Shown: positions 35,484 through 53,858 of the stretch, in pieces | Numbering within the stretch: position 1 is the stretch's first letter | How the letters are laid out: the number at the start of each line of letters is the position of its first letter | Assembly (NCBI RefSeq): GCF_002289565.1 | Contig: NZ_NTFY01000024.1 | Coordinates: forward strand, 1-62,642 | DNA from: Rhodopirellula sp. SM50 | GTDB taxonomy: Bacteria; Planctomycetota; Planctomycetia; Pirellulales; Pirellulaceae | DNA length: 62,642 bases | Direction of reading: 5' to 3' | Translations under genes and position numbers: made by a program | Notes under the pieces: generated by a model | Told to the model about the DNA's origin: nothing | What the model saw: the letters and a program-made list of their open reading frames with translations, nothing else | The model's database searches: none

Positions 35484-36398
35484 CACCTCGGGCAATTCGT
35501 CGTGGATCCCTAGGGAACGTTGAATCCATGACTGCAGAATTTGGCAACCCAATCGTTTCTCTCCCTCCGGGAGAGACGGCGTTTGCGCAGCAAGCAAGCG
35601 GCAGAGAGGGCCGGCGTTGCAAAAGTCGTGGCGCGTTCCGCTACGATTAACTCCGTCACTTCTACAACCGAGATCCCGAGGGACCTCAATTGATTTACTG
35701 AGCGTTTGCGTTTCTAGCGAAACGCCACACCGCAGAGCGGTGCCACAACACAGCCCGGGGTCGCGGAGCGCACCCCGGGTTGTGTCGAAATCGAAACTGG
35801 AACCCCAGCGGGGTTCAACAAACGACGCGTTGCGATCCGAGGGGCAAACTGCGCGAACCCGGCAAGACGTATTGTTCAACCCCGCTGGGGTTGGCGGCCG
35901 AATGGAGGCCGGAACTTGGGGTGCGCTATCGCGACCCCAAGCTTTGATGTGGCACGCCGCTGGCGTGAAACCACGGCCGCGGTAGAACGAGAAGTGCGTC
36001 AGAAATACAATCGACGTCACAAGGGATCCCAGCGATTAGCCGGAGGTCAGCGCAGCGTCACCTCCGGGCGACGCCCCAAATCCTCTCCTCGACCCCGGAC
36101 GGGGTCGCAGCGCGTTGCAGCGTCCTCGGCCCAGAGCCATCTCGGTTGGCTTGAACGGAGTAATCGGAGCACTGCGAGCCGTCCGGCGCCCGCTTGTCTC
36201 TCCCGCGCCGATCCTCGAGCGCCAAACGTTCCGCCCATTGACGAGCACATCGACATCGCGTGCGATCGCACGACCGATGGCAGTGTTGGCGCCTAATAAA
36301 CCGAGGGCACGGTAGATCCACGACTGCGCGGCGACCGATTTCAAAAAAAGTGGTGCGCCGTGACCAAACGTGTCACGAAGGTTGTTATTCTTTTCGGG
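35484..36398. other. Gene-poor stretch with palindromic repeats before cas3
   Basis: No convincing gene. Two imperfect palindromes are visible: CACAGCCCGGGGT and ACCCCGGGTTGTG (about 35745-35783), and AACCCCAGCGGGGTTCAAC and GTTCAACCCCGCTGGGGTT (about 35803-35896). Several Arg-rich open frames on the minus strand (36036-36461) look like repeat-derived or decayed sequence. Confidence 0.6.
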
Positions 36399-38717
36399 AT
36401 GACTACGCCGGACCCCGCCGCTGGATCCTCCCCTGATCCGCCAAGAATTTTCTACGCCCACAGCCTCCCGGGCCGCCCACCAGAAGAGTGGGAGACGCTA
36501 GAGCAGCACATGCAGAATGTAGCTATCGGCGATGAGGTCACGCCGGGAGCAGGTGACAACGCGTCTTACTTTTCCGCACGAGAGATGGGCGAAATGGCAG
36601 GTTGGTTGCATGACCTCGGTAAAGCGTCTACTGCTTTTCAGGACCACATCAAACGTACCAAAGCGGAACCCGTCGATAGTGCACTAGCGGAACAGTTTCC
36701 CGATGACAACGCAGGTGGGCAAACTGTCGATCATTCGACGGCAGGAGCCAGGGTTGCGGATTCGATGGGCGGTTTGGGGCGTTTGCTTTCCTACGCGATC
36801 GCGGGGCACCATGCAGGATTACCAGATTGGACGACGAAGGGACGCGGAAATCTTCGGCATCGATTAACAGAAAAATATATCGACCCAACCGATGCAAGAG
36901 TTTTGGCATGCGTCACTCAGTTCGGGCGCCTACGGTCACCGAGAATCAAACCCAGCGACGGGAGTGGAGCCTTTTCGGCATCGATGCTCTCACGAATGGT
37001 TTTTTCCTCCCTAGTGGATGCGGATTATCTGTGGACCGAGCGTTTTTACTCGGATGGGGCTGGTGGTCGCATTTCGAAGCAGTTCGATCCAGCTGCGTTT
37101 ACTGATAAGTTAGACAAGCACTTGCGGCAGTTACGAACAGATGGCGCAGTGAATTCCATTCGCCGAGAAGTGTTGAAGGCCTGCAGAAACGCCGCAGAAG
37201 ACCGAAAAGGATTTTTCAGCCTTCATGTTCCGACTGGTGGTGGAAAGACGTTAGCATCGATGGCGTTTGCTCTTCGTCATGCAGCGGTACATGGCTTACG
37301 TCGCGTTGTCTACGCGATTCCATTGACAACAATCATTGAACAGACATCAAACGAATTTCGGAAGATATTTGGCAATTCAGAAGTTCTGGAACATCACAGT
37401 GCAATTGATCCTGAAGACCAATTGAAATCGACTCCGGCCCAGCGGTTGGCGTCGGAAAATTATTCAGCACCGCTGATTGTGACCACGAACGTTCAATTAC
37501 TCGAATCACTATTCGCTGCGAGGCCATCGCGTTGTCGAAAGCTGCATCACCTTGCCGGGTCGGTGATTGTTTTCGATGAAGTGCAGATGTTGCCGGTGGG
37601 GTTACTTCATCCGACATTAGCCGTATTGACCGAACTGGTTCAAAACTATGGCTGCTCCATCGTCCTGTGTAGTGCGACGCAGCCAGCGATTCAATTCCGT
37701 GAAAGCTTTCCGATCGGACTAAAGGCAGTTCGTCCCATTATCAGTGACCCTGCAACGTTGCATCAGCAACTAAAACGCAATCGTGTGAGGATGGCGGGAC
37801 GCTTGGAAAATGAGGAACTGGTCCAGCGGCTTGCGTCGCATCATCAAGTCTTGTGCATCGTTAACACGCGACGACATGCGGCTGACTTAGCAGCCGATCT
37901 CCCCCAAACGATTCATCTTTCAGCAAATCTCTGCGCTGCCCATCGTGAACAGATCGTGGCCGAGATACGTCGACGCCTGAGTCAGGGAGAACAATGTCGC
38001 GTGGTTAGCACGACGGTGATGGAAGCAGGAGTGGATGTCGACTTTCCCGTGGTGTACCGGGCCGAAGCCGGCCTCGACTCGATCGCCCAGGCAGCTGGCC
38101 GTTGCAATCGAGAGGGGAAGCGTTCCAGCGGTGATGTATGGGTGTTTGAGTACGATCGCAATACTTATCGAGCAATCGACATGGTAAGTGACGGTATCGC
38201 CATGTTTCGTCAAATTGCCGATCGCTATCAGGAGGACTTGCTTTCACCGCAAGCGATCGACCACTACTTTCGCTTGCTGTTCTGGGACCGTGGAGGCGAA
38301 GACGGAAAAGGATGGGACCACGGTCTCGGCGGGATGTCGGTGATGGAATGTTTGGACGGCGATGACCGAAGGCGCCAACTCGCCTTCCAATTTGCTACAG
38401 CGGCACAGCGGTACCGCCTTATTCAATCCACCCAAACGCCAATCGTCGTTCCCTTTGAACGGGGCGAGAAATTAATCAAATCGCTTTTGAGGATGCCGCC
38501 AGAGAAGCTGAGTGCGAGTTGGATCCGCGACTGGGATCGAAAATCGCAACGGTTTAGCGTGGGCATTTACGAATTCGACCATCGCAAACTCCTCGACAAC
38601 ACGACCGTGATGGAATGCCACGGGCGATGGGTGCTTTGTAACCCACGTGCCTACGACCTCACGCTCGGGTTGCGTCGGGATGCAATCGGTATGTCCCCTG
38701 AGTTGTTGATTCCATGA
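36399..38717 (+). CDS. cas3: CRISPR-associated helicase/nuclease Cas3 (type I-C)
   Basis: A 772-residue Cas3. The HD nuclease comes first (YAHSLPG near residue 20, GWLHDLGKASTAFQDH near 68-84, AGHHAGLPD), followed by the superfamily 2 helicase. Walker A is PTGGGKTLASMAFALRHA, motif II VFDEVQ, and C-terminal motifs include STTVMEAGVDVDFPVVYRAE and AAGRCNREGK. It unwinds and degrades target DNA after recruitment by Cascade. A GTG start at 36360 is in frame; ATG at 36399 lies closer to conserved sequence. It is separated from cas5c by 603 bp of regulatory DNA, so it is likely transcribed separately. A sampled 60-nt stretch (37201-37260) is 28/60 G+C, low for this window. Confidence 0.95.
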   Translation: MTTPDPAAGSSPDPPRIFYAHSLPGRPPEEWETLEQHMQNVAIGDEVTPGAGDNASYFSAREMGEMAGWLHDLGKASTAFQDHIKRTKAEPVDSALAEQFPDDNAGGQTVDHSTAGARVADSMGGLGRLLSYAIAGHHAGLPDWTTKGRGNLRHRLTEKYIDPTDARVLACVTQFGRLRSPRIKPSDGSGAFSASMLSRMVFSSLVDADYLWTERFYSDGAGGRISKQFDPAAFTDKLDKHLRQLRTDGAVNSIRREVLKACRNAAEDRKGFFSLHVPTGGGKTLASMAFALRHAAVHGLRRVVYAIPLTTIIEQTSNEFRKIFGNSEVLEHHSAIDPEDQLKSTPAQRLASENYSAPLIVTTNVQLLESLFAARPSRCRKLHHLAGSVIVFDEVQMLPVGLLHPTLAVLTELVQNYGCSIVLCSATQPAIQFRESFPIGLKAVRPIISDPATLHQQLKRNRVRMAGRLENEELVQRLASHHQVLCIVNTRRHAADLAADLPQTIHLSANLCAAHREQIVAEIRRRLSQGEQCRVVSTTVMEAGVDVDFPVVYRAEAGLDSIAQAAGRCNREGKRSSGDVWVFEYDRNTYRAIDMVSDGIAMFRQIADRYQEDLLSPQAIDHYFRLLFWDRGGEDGKGWDHGLGGMSVMECLDGDDRRRQLAFQFATAAQRYRLIQSTQTPIVVPFERGEKLIKSLLRMPPEKLSASWIRDWDRKSQRFSVGIYEFDHRKLLDNTTVMECHGRWVLCNPRAYDLTLGLRRDAIGMSPELLIP

Positions 38718-38731
38718 GTCTTACCGCGATC

Positions 38732-38765
38732 AGAAAAGCTCAGGGCGACGGACAAGCCGCCGCCC
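38732..38765 (-). terminator. Terminator-like hairpin ending the guide RNA
   Basis: On the minus strand a 9-bp stem (GGGCGGCGG, 38765-38757, with CCGTCGCCC, 38751-38743, one G-U pair) and a 5-nt loop are followed by TGAGCTTTTCT, a moderately T-rich tail. It abuts the 35-nt spacer-like segment exactly. Confidence 0.6.
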
Positions 38766-38832
38766 CGAGGCACCAAATCGAATGTTTATTCGATCAGCCG
38801 GTTTCAATCCACGCGAACGCGAAGTCCGCGAC
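38732..38832 (-). ncRNA. CRISPR-repeat-like guide RNA gene (CreA/CreR-like candidate)
   Basis: A compact minus-strand unit. Positions 38832-38801 form a degenerate repeat and 38800-38766 a 35-nt spacer-like segment beginning CGGCTGATCGAATAAA. Positions 38765-38732 hold a terminator-like hairpin. The degenerate repeat matches the array repeat at 25 of 32 positions, including the last 15 (CGTGGATTGAAAC and two before). It differs at positions 7, 8, 10, 11, 12, 16 and 17. The 7-bp stem (positions 3-9 with 15-21) survives because changes at 7/17 and 8/16 compensate (C-G to G-U, C-G to A-U), so Cas5c could still process it. The 35-nt length equals that of ordinary spacers. No clear promoter was found on its 5' side. 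Known parallels are CreA of CreTA modules and CreR guides. Confidence 0.75.
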
Positions 38833-38890
38833 ATTGTGGGTGAGTGTCAGCCAAGCGGATTAGAATAGCCAGCCCAATTGCCTATACGGG

Positions 38891-38928
38891 TTCCGGCTAA
38901 TCGAATAAAATTAAAAACGTTTTCAAAA
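38891..38928 (+). promoter_or_regulatory. Predicted Cascade target site (TTC PAM plus protospacer) of the guide RNA
   Basis: TTC at 38891-38893 is the type I-C PAM. The adjoining protospacer (38894 onward, CGGCTAATCGAATAAA) matches the spacer-like segment at 15 of the first 16 positions. The mismatch is at position 6, a base flipped out and not read in type I guides. Pairing stops after position 16, which favours binding without cleavage. The site ends about 5 bp before the -35 element of the candidate tRNA/cas promoter. Confidence 0.75.
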
Positions 38929-38933
38929 GTATA

Positions 38934-38962
38934 TTGACCAAGAATTTCCGTAACGGTAAAAA
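38934..38962 (+). promoter_or_regulatory. Candidate promoter for the tRNA-like gene and possibly cas5c-cas8c-cas7
   Basis: TTGACC (38934-38939), a 17-bp spacer and TAAAAA (38957-38962) give a plausible sigma-70 promoter with transcription starting near 38969. Upstream is A/T-rich and overlaps the predicted Cascade target. A second weak -10 (TATATT, 38930-38935) overlaps the target more directly. Confidence 0.5.
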
Positions 38963-38966
38963 ATAA

Positions 38967-38997
38967 GAGTGCCAACAGTGGTAGCTGATTGGCACTC
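38967..38997 (+). other. 9-bp inverted repeat directly before the tRNA-like gene
   Basis: GAGTGCCAA (38967-38975) and TTGGCACTC (38989-38997) are perfect complements with a 13-nt loop. The hairpin starts where transcription is predicted to begin and ends two bases before the tRNA 5' end. It could be a 5'-leader hairpin or an operator. Confidence 0.6.
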
Positions 38998-38998
38998 G

Positions 38999-39083
38999 GC
39001 CCAGGTGGCGAAATTGGCAAACGCAGTGGTTTCCAAAACTACCGTTTCGCACGGACTTACGGGTTCGAATCCCGTTCTGGGCA
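38999..39083 (+). tRNA. Class II leucine-type tRNA with CCA anticodon
   Basis: An 85-nt cloverleaf. The acceptor pairs GCCCAGG with TCTGGGC, discriminator A39083. The D arm is GCG/CGC with GG in the loop. The anticodon stem is GTGGT (39026-39030) with ACTAC (39038-39042), loop TTCCAAA, anticodon CCA at 39033-39035. A 16-nt variable region has a 3-bp stem CGT/ACG, and the T arm is ACGGG-TTCGAAT-CCCGT. CCA is not encoded at the 3' end. The start GCCCAGGTGGCGAAATTGGC, A73 and the long variable arm are leucine-tRNA features, whereas a CCA anticodon reads UGG (tryptophan). A normal tRNA-Trp is class I with a short variable loop. It lies inside the cas operon, downstream of a predicted Cascade target. 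Confidence 0.85.
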
Positions 39084-39320
39084 CGCTTATTATCGCACCG
39101 AAAAAAATCGCGTCAACAGCCAACGTAGGGCACTACTGGCTATTGCAGCTTTGGGTTTGTACGTGGCGTTTGAACGGTACGCCTATCAAATACAAAAGCT
39201 GTTTCGTGATGTCTTCGATCCCTCAAACGGTTCGAAGTGGATTCGAATTGAAAACTTCCCCAGCGCGGCCGGCATGTCGCCCGCGTGTCATGTTTCTTCG
39301 AACCCCAATGAGGTGATTCT

Positions 39321-39986
39321 GTGTTCGGATTTAAGATTCTGGCCAAAGGTCCGCTGGCACTCTTCAGCCGACCAGAGACCCGTGTCGAGCGTGACAGCTA
39401 CGATTGCATCACTCCGTCTGCCGCGCGTGCACTCTGCGAGGGGTGCTACTGGAAGCCAGAAATTCGATGGAAGATTCGGCGTATCCATGTACTCAACCCG
39501 ATTCGACGGTTAAGTCTTCGTCGAAACGAACTGTCTTCCAAGATTGCGGAGCGAACAGCCAACTCCGCGAGAGTTAACGGCGGTCCGCTTGCAACGTTCA
39601 TCGAATCGGACCGACAGCAACGAGCAGCGTTGTATTTGCGTGACGTCTGCTACGGTATCGAGGCTGAATTTGAGGTGATCGGTGGATCCGACGGTCCCGG
39701 TAAGCACGCCGCAATGTTTGAGCGACGCCTGAAGAAGGGGCAATGCTTTCACCGGTACTATCTTGGAACTCGAGAATGCGAAGCTGACCTTCAATGGGTC
39801 GATGAAATCCCTGAAGGTGCTTATGCGACGATTCCTGAGCATGACTTTGGGATGATGTTGCATGACATCGACTATGAAAACTCGATGACACCTCATTTTT
39901 TCCACGCCGTGATGCGGCATGGAATCATCGAAGTGCCGGAGTTTTCACCGATTCGCCAGCAAAAATCGAATCACACGGGGGCCTGA
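39321..39986 (+). CDS. cas5c: Cas5c (Cas5d), crRNA-processing Cascade subunit
   Basis: A 221-residue type I-C Cas5. The N-terminal RAMP-like sheet (FGFKILAKGPLALFSRPETR) is followed by a typical SAARALCEGCYWKPEIRW. In I-C systems this protein replaces Cas6 and cuts the repeat. Tyr43 and Lys128-His129 (GPGKHAAMF) correspond to the catalytic Tyr, Lys and His described for Bacillus Cas5d. The GTG start at 39321 is preceded by GAGGTGA and begins the conserved sequence. One base separates its stop from the cas8c start. The 237 bp between the tRNA and this gene contain no other supported feature. Confidence 0.93.
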   Translation: MFGFKILAKGPLALFSRPETRVERDSYDCITPSAARALCEGCYWKPEIRWKIRRIHVLNPIRRLSLRRNELSSKIAERTANSARVNGGPLATFIESDRQQRAALYLRDVCYGIEAEFEVIGGSDGPGKHAAMFERRLKKGQCFHRYYLGTRECEADLQWVDEIPEGAYATIPEHDFGMMLHDIDYENSMTPHFFHAVMRHGIIEVPEFSPIRQQKSNHTGA

Positions 39987-39987
39987 A

Positions 39988-41844
39988 ATGAGCATGGCTA
40001 ATGCCCCCCTGCCGCCGCGACATGGGATTGTTCCTTCGCTGATAGGACTGTATCAGCGATTGGCAGAAGATGATAATCATTCAATTGCACGTCCCGGATT
40101 TGCTAGTCAGAAGATTCATTTCGCGATCGTTCTTCGACGCGATGGATCACTTTCGGCTTTTCGGTCGGTACAACAGCAAAACGCGCGAGGCAAGCTCGTT
40201 CCCAGGCAAATGCTGCTCTTCGACTCGGGTGGCCGCAGTGGAACCGCGATACAACCCAATTTCTTGTGGGACAACACCGGTTACGTTCTAGGAGCTGATG
40301 ACAAGGGGAAGGCCAAGCGTGCTGGCATGTTGTTTGATGCGTTCAAGGCTTTCCATCGCGAAGTTGCTGAAACTACCGATGACGAAGGCTTGGCAGCGGT
40401 CGTTCGCTTCTTGGACTGCTGGCAACCCGAAGCCGCGGTTAAAATCGAAAACTGGGACTCGATCGTTGGGAAAAACCTTGTCTTTCAAATCGAAGGCGAA
40501 ACTGCATATGTCCATCAATCTCCAATACTGATTGAGTATTGGAGTCAACGGTCACAGGATACGAGTGAGCATTCAGTCACGGCGCCTTCTCTGGTCGACG
40601 GACGAGTCAAGCCAATCGCGAGACTCCATCCGCCGATCAAGGGCGTTGCTGGCGCCGGGACAACCGGTGCAGCGATTGTGAGCTTCAACCAGGTGTCTTT
40701 CGAGAGCTACGGAAAGAAGCAGAGTTTCAACTCACCGCTGAGTGAAACGGAAGCGTTCCAATACACGACCGCGCTGAACTATCTGCTGGCAGACTCCTCA
40801 CGTCGTGTGCAGGTTGGCGATGCAACCATGTTGTTTTGGAGTGACTCTCCGAGCACCGAAGCAGAAGATTTAGCATTCGAGCTATTTGCAGAATCTCCGA
40901 CACCGAAAGAACCAACATCAGATGATCTTGTTTTGATCGACCGGATCAAACACTTTCTTCAAGCGGCCCGTGATGGGACGTTGGCTGATCAGATCAGCGA
41001 TGCCAATGCGGGCTTTTATGTCCTCGGGCTTTCACCGAACAAGAGTCGCCTGAGCGTGAGATTTTGGTGGAACGATTCTGTTGAGGTCTGGGCCAATCGG
41101 CTAGCCATTCACGTGGACGATCTCAGGATTGCTGGATTATCTGACAACAGATTTCCCGTCGTTCGCTCGCTGGCTTCACAAACCGTACGAGATCCAAAAG
41201 AGACGCCCCCGGAACTTGCCGGCGCGATCACACGATCGATTCTGCATGGTACGAAGTATCCTGATGAATTGTGGCGGAGTGTCGTCCGCCGCTGCCGCGT
41301 CGATCGAAACGTTACACCCATTCGTGCAGCAATACTGAAGGCGTGTCTCAATCGAAGCGTTCGCCTGCGACAACCTGAACAATCGAGGGACACATCTGAG
41401 ATTGGTGTAGCGAGGGCAGGTCAGCCGTTCGTTGATTACTCGCTCAATCAAGAAATGCCGTCGAATGCCTATCAGATTGGACGACTGTTGGGGGCGTTGG
41501 ATCTCGTGCATCTTGCATCAACAGACAATCGCATCAAGGAGTCTGCTGCGGCACGAATGTTATCCGTAGCTGTCGCGACTCCTGCATCAGTCATTCCGCG
41601 TCTGGTGAAACTTTACCAGTTGCATAAGACGAATTTACCGGAGGACCCAGCCGAGGCGCGACAACGAAAAGTACGTACGCGGCGGACTTTCGAGCGAATC
41701 GTAGCGGACATCTTTTTGCAAATTCAAAGATTTCCTTCGAATTTGTCCGATCGCGAGCAAGCACTCGCTCTGCTCGGTTTCTACCAACAACGTCAGCACT
41801 TTTTTCGTTTGCAAGAACCGGATCCTGAGGCCGGTTCAGCTTGA
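39988..41844 (+). CDS. cas8c: Cas8c (Csd1), large subunit of the type I-C Cascade
   Basis: A 618-residue Csd1-family protein starting [20 protein letters not shown]. Family features include [29 protein letters not shown] and [19 protein letters not shown]. The C-terminal helical part ([20 protein letters not shown] to [15 protein letters not shown]) is the region usually also made separately as Cas11c from an internal start. It is clearly repeated in the gene two positions downstream. Cas8c recognises the PAM in I-C systems. ATG at 39988 directly follows the cas5c stop. Confidence 0.93.
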
Positions 41845-41896: not shown

Positions 41897-42832
41897 ATGA
41901 ACAAACCATCCACACCGATCACCAATCGCTACGACATTGTTTTCTTCTTTGACATTACGGATGGGAATCCCAACGGAGACCCCGACGCGGGAAACATGCC
42001 GCGTGTTGATCCGGAGACAGGGCAGGGGCTGGTTACGGATGTATGTCTAAAACGCAAGATCCGCAACTTTGTTGGACTGCTGAAGGAGTGCCAGCCGCCC
42101 TATGAAATCTACGTGAAGGAACGTGCTGTTCTGAACAATCAACATGCACTTGCGTGGGAGGCCGTTGCGCCGAAGGTCGCGAAGAAAGACCGGAACCGGT
42201 TGTCGTCTGCCAAGGAAAAGCAACAAGAATTGACAGAGTGGATGTGCCACAATTTTTTCGACATTCGCACTTTCGGAGCCGTGATGACCACGGACATCAA
42301 TTGCGGCCAAGTCCGTGGGCCAGTTCAACTGGGGATTGCCCGTAGTATTCATCCGGTGGTTCCCCAGGAATTTGCAGTGACGCGATGTGCGGTGACCACT
42401 GAAAAAGAAGCTGAAAAGCAAAAGGGCGGAAACCGCACGATGGGCCGGAAATTTACAGTCCCCTACGGGTTGTATCGTGTGCACATGTATGTCAGTCCGC
42501 ATCTCGCAGACAGAACCGGATTCAGCGAGGAGGATTTGGAACTGCTGAAGCAATCGCTTTCACAAATGTTTGAGATCGACCGTAGCGCAGCACGTGCAAA
42601 CATGCGTCCGGTTCGGTGTATCGCGTTCAGACATGATTCAAAGCTAGGTTCGGCCCGCGCCGACGAGTTGTTTCGACGAGTCGAAGTTTCAGTCGGCGAA
42701 GGGATTCAACCAATCGGAGGTTGGGCAGAGTCAATCGAAGGCAGTCGACCGCCTCGAAACGCAAGTGACTATCAAATTGTCGTCGATGACATCGATTTGC
42801 CGTCTGGCGTCAACGTGGAGGAGTGGGTATGA
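41897..42832 (+). CDS. cas7: Cas7 (Csd2), Cascade backbone subunit
   Basis: A 311-residue Csd2/Csh2-family RAMP protein with the hallmark [19 protein letters not shown] near the N-terminus, [15 protein letters not shown], and the central [19 protein letters not shown]. Multiple copies coat the crRNA. GGAGAA lies about 9 bases before ATG 41897. Its stop overlaps the start of the next gene (ATGA). Confidence 0.95.
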
Positions 42833-43656
42833 ACACCAAGCATGTCGGACTGAATGAATTTCATAGTTCCTCGGCCTATCACGCTGGAAGGCTGATGGCT
42901 CTTTTTCAACAGATCCAAGATCTGGATTCACCAGATTTGAATTCGACGTTTTCATCACGTTATTTTTCAGCCGCTACGGATTGTCCCGCTCGGGTGCTCC
43001 CGACTGTTTGTGACATTGCGATGAAGCGTTTGAGGCGTTTGCCCGTTCGTAAGCATCGATATGATTTGCGTGCTGCATTGATTCGCACGTACGGACAGAT
43101 TGATCGCTTGCCGTCAGTGCTGACATTGAAGGGGAAGGCTGAGTTCCAGCTTGGATATTTTCACCAGTGCGGCGTGGTTGTCGGTCGTTACAAAAACGGG
43201 CGCTACAAGAGCAGCGATGGAACAATCGTGAAGAGCCTGGGCGAACGGACGATTGCTGATCTACTTTTCCAAAACGGTGTCAAATATTGCTACGAAGAAC
43301 CGTTGAATGTCCCAATAAAACTGTCCGATCCCAATGGTGAAAAAAAACAAGTCGAGCCAGATTTCACCATCGAACGATTCGGTTTCCGCCTGCTGATAGA
43401 GTACACAGGACTGCTGGACGACGTTCGCTATCACAAGAATTGGCGCTGGAAGTTGAAGCGATTGACACGCGGTCTAGGTGGCAAGGAATTTCGTGACTTG
43501 GTTGCGGAAACAGGGGATACGTATCCTGTCAGCCTTACCAAATTCACCTTGCTCGATGTGACACCCGACGAATTGCAATCACAAGTTCAGGTGGACCAGC
43601 TACTGGAGAAAATTCAGACTTGGATCTCCTGGATAGATTCTAAGAATCCCCAGTAG
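42829..43656 (+). CDS. Cas11c-like domain fused to a PD-(D/E)XK nuclease-like domain
   Basis: A 275-residue protein whose ATG overlaps the cas7 stop. Residues 1-118 align with the C-terminus of the neighbouring Cas8c: [17 protein letters not shown] versus [30 protein letters not shown] versus [13 protein letters not shown], and [11 protein letters not shown] versus [10 protein letters not shown]. That part of Cas8c is the Cas11c small subunit. Residues about 130-240 look like a restriction-endonuclease fold with the series Glu139 ([11 protein letters not shown]), Asp178 (VEPDFTI), Glu191 (LLIEYTG) and Lys208 (WRWKLKRL). It is therefore a possible Cascade-associated nuclease. No standard type I-C gene has this build. 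Activity is inferred. Confidence 0.75.
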
Positions 43657-43657
43657 A

Positions 43658-43897
43658 TTACTCAGACGATGCCGATTCGAATTCAAATCGCCGGCTTTCC
43701 GCGGACGGCGGGGCTGTGACCCGAATCTCAAGTCGAGTTGCCTTTCCATCGATGAACATTTCAATTTCGCCGGTCCCTTCGCCTACCGATTGTTGCTCGG
43801 CAAGTAACGCAAATCCAGGTCCCAAATGTCCCAATTCATACCGGATTCCATTCATCTTCAGGTACAGCTCGACGTCAGCCGAAAAAGTCTTAGGCAT
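43658..43897 (-). CDS. Small hypothetical protein facing the kinase-like gene
   Basis: A 79-residue beta-rich frame (MPKTFSADVELYLKMNGIRY onwards) containing FALLAEQQSVGEGTGEIEMF. It runs against the operon, ending one base after the preceding gene, and its start region abuts the start of the forward kinase-like gene. An alternative ATG at 43906 would overlap that start. No family recognised. Confidence 0.5.
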   Translation of the reverse strand: MPKTFSADVELYLKMNGIRYELGHLGPGFALLAEQQSVGEGTGEIEMFIDGKATRLEIRVTAPPSAESRRFEFESASSE

Positions 43898-43904
43898 CGA
43901 GATC

Positions 43905-44408
43905 ATGGATCTTCCTGAGTCAATCGAATCGCGTTTGAAGACGTACACGGAACTTCGAAAATCGGTCGTGGTGTCCGGCCTTGGCCAGGGCACGCAGGGT
44001 AGCGTAGTCGTCTGCTCTAATCTATCCCAGCAACACGTCGCTGTAAAATTTCACGAACGCTCGAATGCCTATTTTCGTGAACGCGATGTCTATCTGCGAT
44101 TGTCAGATCTAGAAATCACCCATGTACAGGGCCTCCGTATTCCTATTCTCGTTCATTTCGACGACGATTTACTCGCCATCGAGATGACCATCGTCAGCCC
44201 TCCATTTTGTTTGGACTTTGGCGGGGCGTACTTGGACCGGCCGCCGGATTATACCCCCGAAGTCTGGCGGGATTGGCGGGAACAGAAGAGCGAGGACTTT
44301 GAAGAAGACTGGCCGGTTGTCCAAGAGATCTTGGCCGAATTTGAGTCCTTCGGGATCTATATCGCCGACGTCAATCCCGGAAATATCCGTTTCCGGAACA
44401 ACACCTGA
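43905..44408 (+). CDS. Minimal protein-kinase-like protein
   Basis: A 167-residue protein with kinase-like elements in the right order. A glycine-rich loop (VVSGLGQGTQGSVVV, about residues 22-36) is followed by VAVKFHE with the conserved Lys and, near the C-terminus, YIADVNPGNIRF, resembling the catalytic-loop Asp and Asn. The large C-lobe of ordinary kinases is missing and no DFG is evident, so activity is doubtful. It lies between the effector and adaptation cas genes, 21 bp before cas4. Base composition changes within it, from A/T-rich in the first half to G/C-rich after about 44160. Confidence 0.6.
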   Translation: MDLPESIESRLKTYTELRKSVVVSGLGQGTQGSVVVCSNLSQQHVAVKFHERSNAYFRERDVYLRLSDLEITHVQGLRIPILVHFDDDLLAIEMTIVSPPFCLDFGGAYLDRPPDYTPEVWRDWREQKSEDFEEDWPVVQEILAEFESFGIYIADVNPGNIRFRNNT

Positions 44409-44429: not shown

Positions 44430-45107
44430 GTGAGCTACCACGAAGACGACTTGTTGCCGATCTCGGCTCTCCAGCACCTGCTGTTCTGCCCACGCCAATG
44501 CGCGCTGATTCATGTCGAACGATTGTGGGCCGAAAACCAGTTGACGGTCGAAGGATCGCACCTGCATGAAAAGGCCGATACGCCGCAGCACGCGCTCGAC
44601 AACACCGGCGCAGGCTCCGTTCGGATCGAGCGGGCCTTGCCGATCCGATCGCTCGAGCTGGGGCTGATCGGCCAAGCCGACGTCGTTGAGTTCCATCTCG
44701 ATGACGCCAGACAAATTCAGCGGATCGTGCCCGTCGAATACAAGCGGGGACGACCGAAGAAAGACGACTCCGATCGCGTCCAGCTTTGTGCCCAAGCCCT
44801 CTGTTTGGAGGAAATGCGTGGCACCGAGGTTACCGAAGGTGCGCTCTTTTACGGGACCAAACGACGGCGTCAGAACGTCCGGATCGATACAGAGTTGCGG
44901 GACACGACGATGACGACGATTGATCGGTTGCGCACCATGATTCGCGAGCACGAGACGCCGGCGGCCGTCTTCACCAAAGCTTGCAAAAAATGTTCGCTGA
45001 TCGAACTCTGCCTGCCAACGGCAACGTCCGGCCAGCGTGACGTCAGCCGCTTTGTCAGCCGCCAACTGGAAGCCCACCTCCGCGCCACCGAACCCCTTTC
45101 GGATTGA
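44430..45107 (+). CDS. cas4: Cas4 nuclease (adaptation)
   Basis: A 225-residue Cas4 with an N-terminal Cys in LLFCPRQCALIHVE and the RecB-like nuclease motifs GLIGQADVVEF and VPVEYKRG followed by CAQALCLE. The iron-sulfur cysteines at the end are CKKCSLIELC. It trims prespacers and selects the PAM with Cas1-Cas2. The GTG start at 44430 overlaps an ATG one frame away (44428). Followed by cas1 after 9 bp. Confidence 0.93.
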   Translation: MSYHEDDLLPISALQHLLFCPRQCALIHVERLWAENQLTVEGSHLHEKADTPQHALDNTGAGSVRIERALPIRSLELGLIGQADVVEFHLDDARQIQRIVPVEYKRGRPKKDDSDRVQLCAQALCLEEMRGTEVTEGALFYGTKRRRQNVRIDTELRDTTMTTIDRLRTMIREHETPAAVFTKACKKCSLIELCLPTATSGQRDVSRFVSRQLEAHLRATEPLSD

Positions 45108-45116
45108 GTTTCGCCG

Positions 45117-46142
45117 ATGAAACGCCATCTCAATACGCTGTTTGTGACCACCGAAGGGAGCTACCTGGCCAAAGACGGTCAGGCGGTCGCGGTCCGAATC
45201 GAGAACGAAACGAGGCTGCGGATTCCGCTGCACAACCTCGACGGCATCGTCTGCTTCGGACGCGTCGGATTCAGCTCGGCGCTCGCCGGTGCCTGTGCCG
45301 ATTCAGGCGTCACCTTGTCGTTGCTCACGCCCAACGGAAAGTTTCTTGCCTCGGTCGTCGGGTATTCACCCGGGAACGTCTTGCTGCGTCGGCAGCAGTA
45401 CCGTGCCGCCGACGAGGCGGCGGCAACCGCAGAGATCGCTAAGAACGTTGTGTTGGGAAAGATCGCCAATGCCAGAAGTGTGTTGTTGCGCGGTGCCCGA
45501 GACCAAAAGTCCGCGGAGGCGGCCGAACGTTTGAGAGCCGTGGCAAAGGGGATGGCCGGGACGTTAAATTTGATCCGCCAGTCGGACGATGTGGACACCG
45601 TTCGAGGCTATGAAGGCGAATCGGCATCGCGATATTTTTCGGCGTTCAGCGAGTTGGTCTCGGTGCCGGAATTTGCGTTCACCAAGCGTTCGCGCCGGCC
45701 ACCGTTGGATGCGATGAATGCCTTGATGAGTTTTATTTACGCGTTGTTGATGCATGATGCGCGGAGTGCGTGCGAGGCGACGGGGTTGGACGCTGCGGTC
45801 GGATTTTTGCATCGCGATCGGCCGGGGCGTCCCGGTTTGGCGTTAGATTTGATGGAGGAGTTTCGTCCGTTCTTGGCGGATCGTCTGGCACTTTCGCTGG
45901 TCAATCGCAAGCAGGTCAACGGACGCGGCTTCGAAACGACCGAATCGGGTGCGGTACGAATGGACGATCAAACGCGCAAGACGGTGCTGACGGCGTACCA
46001 AACTCGTAAGCAGGATGAAATCGAGCATCCGTTCTTGGGCGAAAAGGTTTCGATCGGCATGTTGGTTCACTTGCAGGCTCGGTTGCTGGCCCGGCATTTG
46101 CGTGGCGATTTGGATCAGTATCCCCCGTTCATATGGAAGTAG
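45117..46142 (+). CDS. cas1: Cas1 integrase (type I-C)
   Basis: A 341-residue Cas1c. The beta-rich N-domain ([20 protein letters not shown]) and catalytic helical domain contain the conserved Glu in [13 protein letters not shown], a His in [32 protein letters not shown] and the distal acidic residues. It forms the Cas1-Cas2 complex that inserts spacers beside the leader. The G+C here is high (45781-45840: 41/60), unlike cas3-cas8. Confidence 0.96.
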
Positions 46143-46148
46143 TGTGTC

Positions 46149-46439
46149 ATGCATGTGTTGGTGACTTATGACGTTGCGACGGTGAATTCGGCGGGCAAGC
46201 GTCGATTGCGTCGAGTGGCAAAGATATGTCTGGATTTCGGTCAGCGGGTGCAGAATTCGGTGTTTGAGCTGCATGTCAATCCGGCGCAATGGGCGGAATG
46301 CCGCAAGCGATTGATCGAGGCCTGTGAACCGTTGGAAGACAGTTTGCGGTTCTATCAGTTGGGAAATGACTACGGCGCAAAGGTGGAGCACGTCGGTGCC
46401 AAGCCATCGTTGGACACCGAAGGTCCACTGATCATTTGA
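46149..46439 (+). CDS. cas2: Cas2 (type I-C)
   Basis: A 96-residue Cas2 beginning MHVLVTYDVATVNSAGKRRL, with the usual Asp at the end of strand 1, QNSVFELHVNPAQW, and RFYQLGNDYGAKVEHVG. It is the structural partner of Cas1. It starts 6 bp after cas1 and ends 194 bp before the first repeat. Confidence 0.96.
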   Translation: MHVLVTYDVATVNSAGKRRLRRVAKICLDFGQRVQNSVFELHVNPAQWAECRKRLIEACEPLEDSLRFYQLGNDYGAKVEHVGAKPSLDTEGPLII

Positions 46440-46633: not shown

Positions 46634-49600
46634 GTCGCGCCCCATGCGGGCGCGTGGATTGAAACATCGTGTCCATCAAATCTTCAGACGCGACTTTCGG
46701 TCGCGCCCCATGCGGGCGCGTGGATTGAAACTAACGATAGGTAACTTCTTATGACGACGAAAAACGTCGCGCCCCATGCGGGCGCGTGGATTGAAACACC
46801 AAGACTTCACGGCGAGCGCAAAGGAAGTTCCAGTCGCGCCCCATGCGGGCGCGTGGATTGAAACCCGACAACGAAGCGGCGGCGTGGTGCGTCGCCGTCG
46901 CGCCCCATGCGGGCGCGTGGATTGAAACATTGACGGGCTGATCGAGCGAGCACCCGCGATCATGTCGCGCCCCATGCGGGCGCGTGGATTGAAACGTCGG
47001 CGCGTTGATCGGGCTGGCGCTGGTGGAGGTCGCGCCCCATGCGGGCGCGTGGATTGAAACAAAACACTCGCCTACGAATACACCCCGTGGGACGTCGCGC
47101 CCCATGCGGGCGCGTGGATTGAAACACAAAATCGGGATCACTCTTGGCGGCGTCTTGGGGTCGCGCCCCATGCGGGCGCGTGGATTGAAACTCATTCGCG
47201 GTGCCGGAGTGGCCGATCGAAACGCCGGTCGCGCCCCATGCGGGCGCGTGGATTGAAACAACGAAGCCAGCGGCGAGGCGGGGCCGCAACTGAGAGTCGC
47301 GCCCCATGCGGGCGCGTGGATTGAAACACCGATACGTCTCCTCCTCCGCCGCCGGTTTTATCGTCGCGCCCCATGCGGGCGCGTGGATTGAAACTATGGC
47401 CAGCCGTGGGCGATCATGCCGCACACGCTGTCGCGCCCCATGCGGGCGCGTGGATTGAAACGACCCCGCAAAAACGGATTCTTCGGCTTCCGGATGGTCG
47501 CGCCCCATGCGGGCGCGTGGATTGAAACCGTGCCAGGATGTATCAGTAGCGGGCAAACGAAGTCGCGCCCCATGCGGGCGCGTGGATTGAAACTGGAATC
47601 TTTTTGGCTGGCGACGCGCAGACGGTGTCGCGCCCCATGCGGGCGCGTGGATTGAAACTACTACGTCTATGGACATGCCACTCAACGCAGGTGTCGCGCC
47701 CCATGCGGGCGCGTGGATTGAAACACGATGGCGGCAGGTGACTCGATCGACATCATGGCGTCGCGCCCCATGCGGGCGCGTGGATTGAAACAAGCATTCA
47801 TCCAGCTTTGCATTTTCGTTGTCCCGTCGCGCCCCATGCGGGCGCGTGGATTGAAACACTCCGTGAAGAAGTCGAAGGCCAAGAACCAAGGTCGCGCCCC
47901 ATGCGGGCGCGTGGATTGAAACATCGCAAACCAAACCCGACGACACGCGCCAAACCTGTCGCGCCCCATGCGGGCGCGTGGATTGAAACTGGAATGGGTG
48001 TGAGACAGTCAGGAGCCAGGATCAGGTCGCGCCCCATGCGGGCGCGTGGATTGAAACTTTCTCGGGTGCTTCTCAGGGATGAGCAGGCAGCCGGGTCGCG
48101 CCCCATGCGGGCGCGTGGATTGAAACCGTTTGGGACATCCTCGACCAACTGATCTCCGCGTGTCGCGCCCCATGCGGGCGCGTGGATTGAAACCAACGGG
48201 GACGAAAAACTGGTCCGCGCCCGAGGGAGTCGCGCCCCATGCGGGCGCGTGGATTGAAACCGCGCCGACGGGAAGTTCGGCAACGCCGGCGTCGAGTCGC
48301 GCCCCATGCGGGCGCGTGGATTGAAACTCCCAAGCGCTGCCGTAGATGGTTGCAACAGTGAGTCGCGCCCCATGCGGGCGCGTGGATTGAAACACTGGAT
48401 CGGCCATGCGCTGTCCTGAATCCGCCCTGTCGCGCCCCATGCGGGCGCGTGGATTGAAACATCATTGAGCGTGAACGGTGCGCCCTGTTCTGGGTCGCGC
48501 CCCATGCGGGCGCGTGGATTGAAACCATCTGCCGACTGCCAACGGGATCATTGATGGCGTGTCGCGCCCCATGCGGGCGCGTGGATTGAAACGACATCGA
48601 CAGCATCATTCGCGCCGAGTTTCGCGTGTCGCGCCCCATGCGGGCGCGTGGATTGAAACAAGTGCGCCTCGAGGGACCGATCGGCGTCAACAAAGTCGCG
48701 CCCCATGCGGGCGCGTGGATTGAAACGGTCACGAGATCATCGACGGGAGCGACATCAGATTGTCGCGCCCCATGCGGGCGCGTGGATTGAAACGTGATCG
48801 TGATGTCATGCGAGAGCGGTGTCACTGGTCGCGCCCCATGCGGGCGCGTGGATTGAAACTTTGCCGACAACACCGGGCAATTGCATCACGATCCGTCGCG
48901 CCCCATGCGGGCGCGTGGATTGAAACGCACAACCCTTGCGCGAATGATTGACAATCGCAAGTCGCGCCCCATGCGGGCGCGTGGATTGAAACGGCAAGGT
49001 TTGCCGACGGTCGATGACTTGCGGCGGTCGCGCCCCATGCGGGCGCGTGGATTGAAACTTCGCCGTTTTTGTGGTTGCAATATTGCAACCCGTCGTCGCG
49101 CCCCATGCGGGCGCGTGGATTGAAACTCGTTTTTTTGTGCGCTGATGCACGGGCGGGGGGCGTCGCGCCCCATGCGGGCGCGTGGATTGAAACTCGCTCG
49201 ACAAAGAAACTGACACCAACCGCCAGGGTCGCGCCCCATGCGGGCGCGTGGATTGAAACACCAGCACTGCGAATGGTCCACATCGCGGCCAAGTCGCGCC
49301 CCATGCGGGCGCGTGGATTGAAACGTTATCAGTGCCGCGAAAGCGTATCAACGCGGGCGGTCGCGCCCCATGCGGGCGCGTGGATTGAAACTGCTCGATC
49401 GAGTTGTAGGACACGGAATCGTCATGTCGCGCCCCATGCGGGCGCGTGGATTGAAACGCCCGTCTTGGGGTCCGTCTCGTAAAGCCCCGTTTCGTCGCGC
49501 CCCATGCGGGCGCGTGGATTGAAACTTTCTCGGGTGCTGCTCGGGGATGAGCGTGCAACCGTCGCGCCCCATGCGGGCGCGTGGATTGAAACTCGGGGCT

Positions 49601-52600
49601 TGATCCCTTGTCGGGCATCACCTGCACGTCGCGCCCCATGCGGGCGCGTGGATTGAAACTTCTCGATGAGTGCATCCGATGCCGCGGCTTCCCTGTCGCG
49701 CCCCATGCGGGCGCGTGGATTGAAACGCTTTTTTTATTGGTGGGTGGTCGCTGGCCGGTCAGTCGCGCCCCATGCGGGCGCGTGGATTGAAACTCGGCGA
49801 CACGACGGCGAAGCAGCTGGCACGCAGTCGCGCCCCATGCGGGCGCGTGGATTGAAACGCGGGCAAGATCCGCGGCGAGTCGGTAAAGCCGGTGTCGCGC
49901 CCCATGCGGGCGCGTGGATTGAAACATGGTGCGGTAGTCCCAATCGCCGAAATGGTCTGTCGCGCCCCATGCGGGCGCGTGGATTGAAACATCGAACGGG
50001 TCGTCTTCTGGAATCTCCCCGGTGCCGTCGCGCCCCATGCGGGCGCGTGGATTGAAACGTCCCCAAAGTCGCCGGCACGCGCGAAACGCGGGTCGCGCCC
50101 CATGCGGGCGCGTGGATTGAAACAGCCCCATCGCCGAGCAGACAAACGTTCCGTCGCGTCGCGCCCCATGCGGGCGCGTGGATTGAAACTCCGTTGTGAT
50201 CTCCAACTCTCCGATCGCGTCGACGGTCGCGCCCCATGCGGGCGCGTGGATTGAAACACTCGCTTTTGCACCACTCGCGCGGCCGGCCGCAGTCGCGCCC
50301 CATGCGGGCGCGTGGATTGAAACTTGCTGCTCTACCGGGACCATCGGCCAACCCTTTTGTCGCGCCCCATGCGGGCGCGTGGATTGAAACAGGTGGTGGT
50401 GACACACGCATCATCAGCCCCGAGTCGCGCCCCATGCGGGCGCGTGGATTGAAACACGTTTTCGCATTAACAACATAGTGATCTACACCGAGTCGCGCCC
50501 CATGCGGGCGCGTGGATTGAAACGCCTTGGGCCAGTTGATCTCATCAAACGGGTCATCGTCGCGCCCCATGCGGGCGCGTGGATTGAAACGCCTGATCCT
50601 CTTTCGTGGCCGCACAATAGACCTGCGTCGCGCCCCATGCGGGCGCGTGGATTGAAACATCCGCAGGCGTTCCCGTGCCTCGTTCGGTGACAGTCGCGCC
50701 CCATGCGGGCGCGTGGATTGAAACATCGTCAATCGGTCATGGCTCGCGATGACAGAGTCGCGCCCCATGCGGGCGCGTGGATTGAAACTTGGTGAAAAAC
50801 TCAGTTGTGTCGGCAAGCCTTGGTCGCGCCCCATGCGGGCGCGTGGATTGAAACATCATGTGGTGCGAACCGATGATCGCCGAGTCGCCAGGTCGCGCCC
50901 CATGCGGGCGCGTGGATTGAAACGCCAGTACGCCGCCCTCTCTGCCATGCTTTTGAGGGTCGCGACCCATGCGGGCGCGTGGATTGAAACATCAAAATCT
51001 GCCAGTGCGGCGAACCGATCGTGCAGGTCGCGCCCCATGCGGGCGCGTGGATTGAAACACTAAGGTGGACGAGTGGCACGGGATGATCGGGCGTCGCGCC
51101 CCATGCGGGCGCGTGGATTGAAACTTTATAGCGTGATGCTTGTGCTGATCAAGCCAAGTCGCGCCCCATGCGGGCGCGTGGATTGAAACTCGCCTCGTGC
51201 TCGATACGCATGCCCGATTTTGCGTCGCGCCCCATGCGGGCGCGTGGATTGAAACGTCTGCCCATCCCGCCACCGTCACAGTCGGGTGATTGTCGCGCCC
51301 CATGCGGGCGCGTGGATTGAAACCGTTCAGATCCAGCCCACCCCAGCCACCAACCGGCGTCGCGCCCCATGCGGGCGCGTGGATTGAAACACATGCACGA
51401 TCGAATTGACGAACGTGTGCTTAAGGTCGCGCCCCATGCGGGCGCGTGGATTGAAACGCCTTTGACGTTGAACGCAAAATTGCACAGATCGTCGCGCCCC
51501 ATGCGGGCGCGTGGATTGAAACAGCTTACTCCTCCCGGCAACGGGCCTCAGCTTGAGTCGCGCCCCATGCGGGCGCGTGGATTGAAACTGCCGTAATCCG
51601 GCCCCAAGGATCTCATGCACGTGTCGCGCCCCATGCGGGCGCGTGGATTGAAACTACAGGTCGAGTCTGATTGGGAGCCAGGATGGATGGTCGCGCCCCA
51701 TGCGGGCGCGTGGATTGAAACACTTTGCCGTACTTTTTGATCAACGTTGCCGTGTTGTCGCGCCCCATGCGGGCGCGTGGATTGAAACGTTGGCTTCGAG
51801 TTGCTTTTGCATCAGCTCGTTGTGTCGCGCCCCATGCGGGCGCGTGGATTGAAACATGGTCCGGTAGTCCCAATCGCCGAAATGGTCTTGGTCGCGCCCC
51901 ATGCGGGCGCGTGGATTGAAACACATAGAAACCGCGTTGTCGACCGCGTTGACGATCCCGTCGCGCCCCATGCGGGCGCGTGGATTGAAACACCGGTCGG
52001 CCTGGTCGTCGCCGCGATCGTCGGAGTCGCGCCCCATGCGGGCGCGTGGATTGAAACACACTGGCGACCGTCGCCGCGGCCGAAATCGCCGCGTCGCGCC
52101 CCATGCGGGCGCGTGGATTGAAACTACAGGCGCAATACGACGCGTTGATCGGTACGGAAGGTCGCGCCCCATGCGGGCGCGTGGATTGAAACGCTTTTTT
52201 GTCGGACGCCGCGACGTACAACACGAAGTCGCGCCCCATGCGGGCGCGTGGATTGAAACATCGATGCAAAACGACACTTTCGCACCCGTCGGAGTCGCGC
52301 CCCATGCGGGCGCGTGGATTGAAACGCCGCTTCGATGATGCGGTCCATGTCTGTGCCCGTCGCGCCCCATGCGGGCGCGTGGATTGAAACAGCTGCTCAT
52401 AGGCCTTGCCCCACTGCTTCTCCCAGTCGCGCCCCATGCGGGCGCGTGGATTGAAACGGCGATTCGCGTTTGGAACGTGGCCGGTTGCTCCGACTGTCGC
52501 GCCCCATGCGGGCGCGTGGATTGAAACGTCATCGATGGCCTTATCCAGCGACGAAACCAAGAGTCGCGCCCCATGCGGGCGCGTGGATTGAAACATTAGG

Positions 52601-53858
52601 GTGCTGCACCGACGAATCTAGCTCGATGTCGCGCCCCATGCGGGCGCGTGGATTGAAACAGCGTAAGCCTGGGGAGCGATTTACAGCCGCCGGCATGTCG
52701 CGCCCCATGCGGGCGCGTGGATTGAAACTCGACGCGCCAGTTTCGATGCCCGTGATTGTCGGGTCGCGCCCCATGCGGGCGCGTGGATTGAAACTACGTG
52801 AACGGGGAGCTCATAGGGACAGCCACACCGTCGCGCCCCATGCGGGCGCGTGGATTGAAACGTTGATCTCGAACGGCGACACCCGCAAGATGTGAGTCGC
52901 GCCCCACGCGGGCGCGTGGATTGAAACCGCAGACGCTGATGCCGGCTCCGTTAAGTTGCGTCGCGCCCCATGCGGGCGCGTGGATTGAAACTGAGCCGTC
53001 GCCGGATCATCGATCGCCTGGGACGTCGCGCCCCATGCGGGCGCGTGGATTGAAACGTCTTGGGCGATGCGGTAGTTGGCCGTGAACGCCGCGTCGCGCC
53101 CCATGCGGGCGCGTGGATTGAAACGAAATCGTGAAACTGTTATCAATTGAAATCGTATGTCGCGCCCCATGCGGGCGCGTGGATTGAAACATTTTCGAAT
53201 CGATCCGCAAAAGCCCGTTTGGTTGTCGCGCCCCATGCGGGCGCGTGGATTGAAACACGAACCCGACAGCAATCACGGTGAGCGCATGACGGTTGCGCCC
53301 CATGCGGGCGCGTGGATTGAAACAAGACAAGCAGACAACGATGCTTCGTAGATACCGTCGCGCCCCATGCGGGCGCGTGGATTGAAACATGTGAACGACT
53401 TACGGAGTGACAGGTGAGCGACAGTCGCGCCCCATGCGGGCGCGTGGATTGAAACGCGGGAGACAACGGAGTCAGCTACACGTACCGGTTGTCGCGCCCC
53501 ATGCGGGCGCGTGGATTGAAACGTCAACGGTTCGAAAGTCGGGGTTAATACTCATTGGTCGCGCCCCATGCGGGCGCGTGGATTGAAACAACTCCTTGAA
53601 TTGCCGTGGCGTGGCTCTGCCGGCGTCGCGCCCCATGCGGGCGCGTGGATTGAAACACCAAAGCGAAACCTCGCTTGGATGTCTAAATGCGTGTCGCGCC
53701 CCATGCGGGCGCGTGGATTGAAACTCATTCAACGACGACATTGTCTTAGAGCTTTTGGGTCGCGCCCCATGCGGGCGCGTGGATTGAAACGCATCGACAG
53801 ATTCTTTTGCGAGAAGTGTTTGGAAGGTCGCGCCCCATGCAGGGGCGTGGATTGAAAC
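46634..53858 (+). CRISPR. Type I-C CRISPR array, 109 repeats and 108 spacers
   Basis: The 32-nt repeat begins GTCGCGCCCCATGCGG and ends GCGTGGATTGAAAC, with a 7-bp stem around CATGC. Counting the GATTGAAAC ends gives 109 repeats; spacers are mostly 33-37 nt. Nearly all repeats are identical. Single changes occur in repeat 66 (near 50959), 95 (near 52896) and 101 (near 53292), and two in repeat 109 (53827-53858). The order of decay agrees with a leader at 46440-46633. Two pairs of closely related spacers are present (see findings). Long open frames through the array in several phases are artefacts of a period near 66-67 bp. Confidence 0.99.

Follow-up and report, generated by a model that had tools for sequence, protein, structure and literature searches.

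A tRNA gene as candidate cargo of a CreTA-like guide unit in the type I-C cas locus of Rhodopirellula sp. SM50

The gap between cas3 and cas5c in a type I-C locus of Rhodopirellula sp. SM50 carries a solitary guide gene whose spacer partly matches a PAM-flanked site upstream of a tRNA gene with a leucine-type body and the tryptophan anticodon CCA. The locus lies in a stretch of 62,642 nucleotides, the whole of which is called the window here. It is close to certain that the unit encodes a selected Cascade guide directed at the site at 38894-38909, and the tRNA is probably the gene that it regulates, either alone or together with the cas operon. For the arrangement as a whole, the reading moderately favoured is that of an addiction module which resembles CreTA, belongs to type I-C and has the tRNA as its toxin. 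That its toxicity would arise from the insertion of leucine at UGG codons is favoured by a slightly narrower measure.

In the window, cas3 (36360-38717, plus strand; PF18019, PF22590 and PF00270) forms the upstream flank of the guide unit. The first cas gene downstream is cas5c (39321-39986; PF09704, 1.8e-37), encoding the crRNA-processing subunit of type I-C, and it is followed on the same strand by the open frame of cas8c (Csd1; 39919-41844; PF09709, 1.2e-140), cas7 (41897-42832; PF05107, 6.7e-99) and the genes cas4 (44430-45107), cas1 (45117-46142) and cas2 (46149-46439), which were recognised as a set by PF01930, PF01867 and PF09827. A CRISPR array with 109 repeats of GTCGCGCCCCATGCGGGCGCGTGGATTGAAAC lies downstream of cas2 (46634-53858, plus strand). 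Since Cas5c and Csd1 were among the Cas proteins recognised by Pfam, the locus was assigned to type I-C. The gap between cas7 and cas4 also contains a 277-aa gene (42823-43656) that matches the C-terminal part of Csd1/Cas8c only (PF09709, 2.4e-18), and its product is possibly a stand-alone, extended small subunit of the Cas11c-like kind; another ORF (43716-44408) follows it.

An earlier note on this DNA had described a solitary degenerate I-C repeat on the minus strand between cas3 and cas5c, and such a repeat (psi-R, GTCGCGGACTTCGCGTTCGCGTGGATTGAAAC) was indeed located at 38832-38801, where it is identical to the array repeat at 25/32 positions and differs at seven. The handle of a type I-C crRNA comprises 11 nt. 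The last 11 nt of psi-R at its 3' end (TGGATTGAAAC) are unchanged both in the window and in a second genome of the genus (G889, described below), which agrees with the claim of an intact handle. The psi-R stem has seven base pairs (3-21 to 9-15), all of which are standard in the array, the window and G889. It had also been claimed that all changes in this stem compensate each other at pairs 7/17 and 8/16. Pairing is kept at both, with C-G replaced by A-U at 8/16, but the change at 7/17 leads from C-G to a G-U wobble. When both bases of a C-G pair change at random, a standard pair results in 4/9 cases, so the psi-R stem by itself is weak evidence. Stronger evidence comes from the PAM-flanked target and its covariation with the guide; the earlier note had identified neither the target nor the tRNA.

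The 35-nt spacer-like segment which had been placed behind the repeat was recovered at 38800-38766 on the minus strand (psi-S, CGGCTGATCGAATAAACATTCGATTTGGTGCCTCG), and its positions 1-16 pair with the target except at position 6. An intrinsic terminator stem-loop (38769-38739, minus strand; 13 pairs, 10 of them G-C, then CTTTTCT) replaces a second repeat. The description of a terminator hairpin directly behind the spacer therefore holds for the hairpin and its T run, but the two elements are not fully separate, as the last psi-S bases double as the foot of the terminator stem (spacer to 38766, stem-loop from 38769). Another hairpin is predicted within the guide itself (38776-38795, minus strand), with an 8-bp stem and the loop AAAC (GATCGAAT-AAAC-ATTCGATT), and it could mask part of the seed. 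This hairpin is nearly preserved in G889 despite the changed seed, and three of the four seed changes (positions 2, 7 and 9) stay paired in the predicted fold, which is suggestive only.

The guide matches the plus strand at 15/17 positions behind the PAM TTC at 38891-38893. Positions 1-16 correspond to 38894-38909, 94 bp from the guide, with position 6 as the sole mismatch; in type I crRNAs the sixth positions are flipped out. The remainder of the full-length protospacer (38910-38928, plus strand) is A/T-rich and mostly unpaired with the guide, and its composition may give it a UP-element-like character. Between the -35-like element described below and the target upstream of it lie 24 bp if only the paired part is considered, and 5 bp in the case of the full-length protospacer. 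The distance from the end of the paired part to the cas5c start is 411 bp and includes the tRNA. TTC is a working I-C PAM (PMC10865793), and it outperformed six other trinucleotides when I-C guides were compared with controls (see below). None of 20,000 shuffled guides reached 15/17 in the 730 bases around the target, the best value being 14, obtained once. In the 9.8-Mb window genome (G000), the PAM together with guide positions 1-11 (position 6 free) has one exact match, at the 38891 site. However, 39 one-mismatch relatives of this seed pattern were found in the same genome, compared with 4 for a reversed-pattern control, and their abundance was counted against the CreTA-like reading.

The region was then searched for among 241 family genomes, nine of which gave matches. 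It is present in two of them, the window genome and G889, which belongs to the same genus and comprises 11 Mb in one contig; the other seven share short tRNA or repeat stretches only. The earlier note had named the absence of the unit from relatives with the same cas operon as evidence against its reading, and G889 keeps the unit. Identity between G889 and the window was 96.2% in the cas3 tail, 90.6% in the repeat, 100% in the terminator (0 changes in 31 bases), 98.8% in the tRNA (1 change in 85), 99.2% in the gap between the tRNA and cas5c, and 99.1% in cas5c, and by simple alignment it was 75% at guide positions 1-16 and 42% over the PAM and target. The psi-R of G889 agrees with the array repeat at 24/32 positions, with the stem and the 11-nt handle intact.

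The guide of G889 matches its own target behind TTC at 15/17 positions, the two exceptions being positions 12 and 17. At four positions (2, 6, 7 and 9) the guides of the two species differ, and so do the targets. Three of these (2, 7 and 9) are paired in either species, and position 6 is paired only in G889. When each guide was paired with the target of the other species, 11 and 12 of 17 positions matched, compared with 15/17 for each own pair. This covariation of guide and target in a second species speaks against array decay. A covariance test of the repeat stem had been proposed as a check. Covariation was found at the guide-target level (positions 2, 6, 7 and 9), whereas the repeat stem of G889 adds only a one-sided change from C-G to U-G. 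The PAM and positions 1-11 of the G889 guide (6 free) also have a single exact match in that genome, at the homologous site, and the 42 one-mismatch relatives found there, with 22 for the control, were again counted against the CreTA-like reading. Since the DNA from the tRNA to cas5c is about 99% alike between these two genomes of one genus, conservation of the tRNA there is not independent proof of selection.

A putative promoter, TTGACC-17 nt-TAAAAA, lies upstream of the tRNA at 38934-38962 (plus strand). It was assigned by conservation, as G889, which is 87.1% identical to the window over the surrounding stretch, has the same two hexamers at the same spacing. The element agrees with the consensus at 9/12 positions, and a stricter consensus scan of 38680-39340 listed no plus-strand promoter; planctomycete promoters may not fit the consensus. 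A leader hairpin is predicted directly before the tRNA (38967-38997, plus strand), and its outer 9-bp stem is unchanged in G889, where the inner part is one base short. The consensus scan found no strong terminator between the tRNA and cas5c; its one terminator-like hit on the plus strand, at 39271-39289, is weak, and 0.9 such sites would be expected in shuffled sequence. The same promoter may therefore serve the cas genes as well, in a CreR-like manner.

Two long open frames cross the DNA of the tRNA, at 38969-39316 (115 codons) and 38989-39513 (174 codons), the second of which enters cas5c. The 115-aa frame had no homologue, and its Pfam matches all lay far below the cut-off. Similarly, no homologue was found for a 79-aa piece of the second frame, which had a second match in its own genome at E 0.49, and no Pfam family passed the cut-off for that frame. 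The base missing from the leader hairpin in G889 alters the N-terminus of a frame that crosses it, and open frames remain there. A protein cargo at the tRNA site is unlikely, but the open frames were counted against the CreTA-like reading.

The candidate toxin is the tRNA gene at 38999-39083 (plus strand), which scored 51.1 bits with the tRNA model (cut-off 29) and was called tRNA-Trp(CCA) by ARAGORN. Its isotype was judged against the host's own tRNAs, using 86 other distinct tRNA predictions from sampled stretches of the window genome. The nearest of these were Leu(CAA) with 75.3% and Leu(UAA) with 72.1% identity, and the normal tRNA-Trp (L021) reached 64.7%. The cargo tRNA has the long variable arm, A73 and leucine-type D arm of a tRNA-Leu and departs from it in the anticodon, CCA being one base apart from that of Leu(CAA). 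The short variable region and G73 of a tRNA-Trp are absent: the host's own tRNA-Trp has G73, A1-U72 and a short variable region, whereas the cargo tRNA has A73, G1-C72 and a variable region of 16 nt. Because of its leucine body, long variable arm and A73, the cargo tRNA should be charged by leucyl-tRNA synthetase. It should not be required for the decoding of UGG, since an ordinary tRNA-Trp(CCA) is present elsewhere in the host.

All stems of its cloverleaf can form. However, when the bare tRNA is folded without constraints, the structure of lowest energy (-30.4 kcal/mol) differs from the cloverleaf (-23.0 kcal/mol), and the variable arm pairs weakly; both points were counted against the CreTA-like reading. 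A leucine-type D arm together with a CCA anticodon was seen in 1/396 genomes of the order (the window genome; G889 was outside this set) and in 2/14 genomes of the genus, and the restriction of the tRNA cargo to two genomes of one genus was also counted against that reading. In a set of 134 I-C loci, each with 300 nt or more of DNA before cas5c, the window locus was alone in having a tRNA in the 1 kb that precedes this gene (L046 and L166 in this set are the window itself, and the G889 locus was outside it). A plasmid or phage origin of the tRNA was considered and rejected, as plasmid and phage collections gave no match at the sensitivity used. As a separate observation, the window genome has two dense clusters of tRNAs, many of them low-scoring (C74:28394-31792 and C122:43525-48666; L031 and L032), which include short leucine-labelled tRNAs and second Trp(CCA) tRNAs. 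Two similar clusters exist in G889, and they look like the tRNA arrays of mobile elements.

The earlier note knew of no such guide in a planctomycete I-C locus. This statement needs qualifying, as similar guides were found in I-C loci of several phyla. Cas5c was detected in 26/296 genomes of the order, and 5/27 order loci (window included) have a solitary repeat with an exact handle, which in every case precedes cas5c and has the opposite orientation; a TTC-flanked seed match was present in 5/5 of them. The survey was then extended by 80 loci, the best among 586 that had been confirmed in named genomes, and L072, L102 and L137 were left out of the combined set as second or duplicate loci. These 104 loci contain 880 exact handles, and 47 of the handles, in 35 loci, are solitary, that is, with no similar repeat 50-90 nt away. 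A TTC-flanked target with at least 13/17 matches was found for 13/47 solitary units. Nine controls, in which TTC was exchanged for one of six other trinucleotides or the guide frame was shifted in one of three ways, each yielded no such unit or a single one among the 47. In the 13 units, position 6 was mismatched in 11/13 and position 12 in 9/13, although the score did not favour either position. The 13 units include L078 (13/17, mismatch at position 5), which like L161 looks like a chance match, and they count L099 twice, for two repeats with a common target in DNA with N runs. In this gammaproteobacterial I-C locus the handles at 2772 and 2938 are 166 nt apart and have identical guide sequence and target; one of the repeats contains N, and the duplicate is possibly an assembly artefact. 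A search of the phylum was positive in 40/392 genomes, and another 30 loci (the window and three loci already sampled among them) added L173 and L176.

In three of the planctomycete loci (L047, L062 and L173), cas5c itself lies behind the target with no evident cargo, which was counted against the CreTA-like reading; in L047 the target extends over what appears to be the start of cas5c, and in L173 it lies just before the gene. Three further planctomycete I-C loci have members of one ORF family behind the target, encoding proteins of 72-78 aa with an LPYTxxFD motif: L059 (1238-1474, plus strand), L083 (6560-6787, plus strand) and L050 (1142-1360, minus strand; coordinates of the cas5c-oriented stretch, with the ORF on the other strand). 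The ORF of L059 overlaps the cas5c start by 4 nt. A profile search with the LPYT family found 12 proteins, none of which had a Pfam domain, and these proteins are candidates for protein cargo under Cascade control. L176 has a 63-aa ORF behind the target that is unrelated to the LPYT family. In three proteobacterial loci, L119 (9724-9909), L122 (9709-9918) and L144 (9724-9888), from Halomonas, Azotobacter and Sinimarinibacterium, the order is target, ORF, guide and cas5c. The ORF there comprises 54-69 aa with a hydrophobic end and resembles small membrane toxins; as the handles of these loci match at 8/9 positions, they fall outside the 13 units.

As far as the sequence tells, the guide is of the known CreA/CreR kind, and the cargo is what is new. 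As in CreTA, a degenerate repeat of the co-resident array lies inside the cas locus with its stem and handle kept, and the spacer partly pairs with a PAM-flanked site at the putative cargo promoter. The unit would not be a CreR in the strict sense, which has no cargo between the target and the cas genes, as the tRNA at 38999-39083 lies there, nor does it show a recognisable protein cargo as in CrePA. The Acinetobacter I-F CreTA (PMC10097628) shares with the window the gap behind cas3, the sequence of guide, target and cargo with the guide divergent from the cargo, and a PAM-flanked partial match. Its mismatches are reported at positions 6, 11 and 18, and complementary mutations of guide and target kept its antitoxin function (PMC10097628). 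Among the first 16 guide positions, the mismatch here is at 6 in the window and at 12 in G889, and the guide-target changes between the two genomes offer a natural counterpart to those mutations. The Acinetobacter system has two repeats, whereas the window unit is of type I-C with TTC and has one repeat and a terminator (PMC10097628). Its cargo is a small toxic RNA with a 33-bp ORF, not a tRNA gene, and its target lies downstream of the cargo promoter (PMC10097628). Since the target in the window is upstream of the promoter, the strength of repression is uncertain.

Other known systems share single traits with the window. The I-B creA of Haloarcula hispanica also consists of one repeat ended by a terminator (PMC8501985), and the PAM of haloarchaeal creTA is likewise TTC (PMC9458426). 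The toxicity of the H. hispanica CreTA acts via tRNA decoding, as is proposed for the window, but its toxin RNA sequesters a rare tRNA (PMC8501985), whereas in the window a tRNA whose decoding has changed is the cargo. CreR is a crRNA-like RNA with a partial match upstream of cas genes, as would be the guide of the window, and L047, L062 and L173 are plain CreR-like cases; it is generally described without a toxin gene, whereas an unusual tRNA lies directly behind the target in the window (PMC12737573). In CrePA, a guide-controlled toxic cargo is freed when Cascade is blocked, which is the likeness proposed for the window, but that cargo is a protein, whereas the recognisable gene under the window promoter is the tRNA and the open frames have no homologue (PMC12737573). 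The literature searched did not mention a tRNA gene among the cargoes repressed by CRISPR systems; in it, the original CreTA work of 2021 and the CreR and CrePA work were covered through later papers.

In the proposed CreTA-like module, the minus-strand unit would be transcribed and ended by its own terminator, and Cas5c would cut at the foot of the repeat stem to give a crRNA-like RNA, which would be loaded into the I-C Cascade and bind behind TTC at 38894-38909. Judging from known CreA, a match limited to the first 16 positions would be too little for the recruitment of Cas3 and cutting. The bound complex would adjoin the tRNA promoter and hinder RNA polymerase, so that the tRNA is kept off; such repression is well supported by the sequence but, like the transcription, processing, leucine charging and toxicity of the module parts, it is inferred. 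With Cascade gone, altered by mutation or inhibited by an anti-CRISPR, the tRNA would be made and charged by leucyl-tRNA synthetase, and leucine would be inserted at tryptophan codons (UGG), leading to arrest or death of the cell.

Part of the same evidence also fits an autorepression of the CreR type, in which the guide would repress the promoter of cas5c-cas8c-cas7 and Cascade would limit itself, the tRNA in the leader being a harmless passenger or a processing signal. We regard this as the main rival, a possible but rather unlikely explanation. The target and promoter do lie upstream of cas5c with no strong terminator separating the tRNA from it, and the positions of the targets in L047 and L173 point the same way, as does the overlap in L059, where cargo and cas5c are probably on one transcript. 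However, a leucine-type tRNA with a tryptophan anticodon behind the promoter, seen so rarely in the order and genus, would be left unexplained, and other I-C guides face small ORFs too. Autorepression and the CreTA-like reading can also hold jointly.

It is considerably less probable that the tRNA is useful to the cell, that is, that once derepressed and charged with tryptophan or leucine it restores translation after a phage nuclease has destroyed host tRNAs, as an emergency response to the inhibition of Cascade. Phage-borne tRNAs have been reported to evade tRNA-targeting defences (PMC10264068, PMC11555353), and the anticodon belongs to an essential single-codon tRNA. However, the tRNA differs from the host's own tRNA-Trp at position 73 and at pair 1-72, its leucine body argues for leucine charging, and a harmless tRNA would have no obvious need for constant repression. 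That the unit is a decayed array fragment, a chance repeat or the remnant of an RNA anti-CRISPR (Racr) with no regulatory role is scarcely credible, even though seven of the 32 repeat positions differ, the repeat is single, and Racrs are described as solitary repeat units in viral genomes (PMC10651486). This unit sits in the cas locus itself, and array decay was rejected because guide and target covary. The central claim of the earlier note, a selected CreA/CreR-like guide instead of a decayed array, was supported by the target, its PAM and uniqueness, the second species with its compensatory guide-target changes, and the parallel I-C units.

In the literature covered here, the toxins repressed by CRISPR systems are either proteins or RNAs, the latter acting by sequestration of a tRNA or by disturbance of translation initiation, and a tRNA cargo under the CreTA-like reading would add a new toxin class that acts via mistranslation. 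If this is true, an altered anticodon is enough to make an addiction module out of a household RNA. The comparison of the two species amounts to a natural compensatory-mutation experiment on which guide positions matter, in which 6 and 12 are free and the others are paired. The parallel units suggest that the cas3-cas5c gap of I-C loci is a site where small cargo genes fall under the control of Cascade, which can serve as a search rule. More broadly, and with the balance standing even, CRISPR-Cas would be kept in these bacteria by the threat of genetic-code corruption through a Cascade-silenced tRNA that reads UGG as leucine, and guide and target would coevolve so quickly that sister species may carry alleles that do not neutralise each other.
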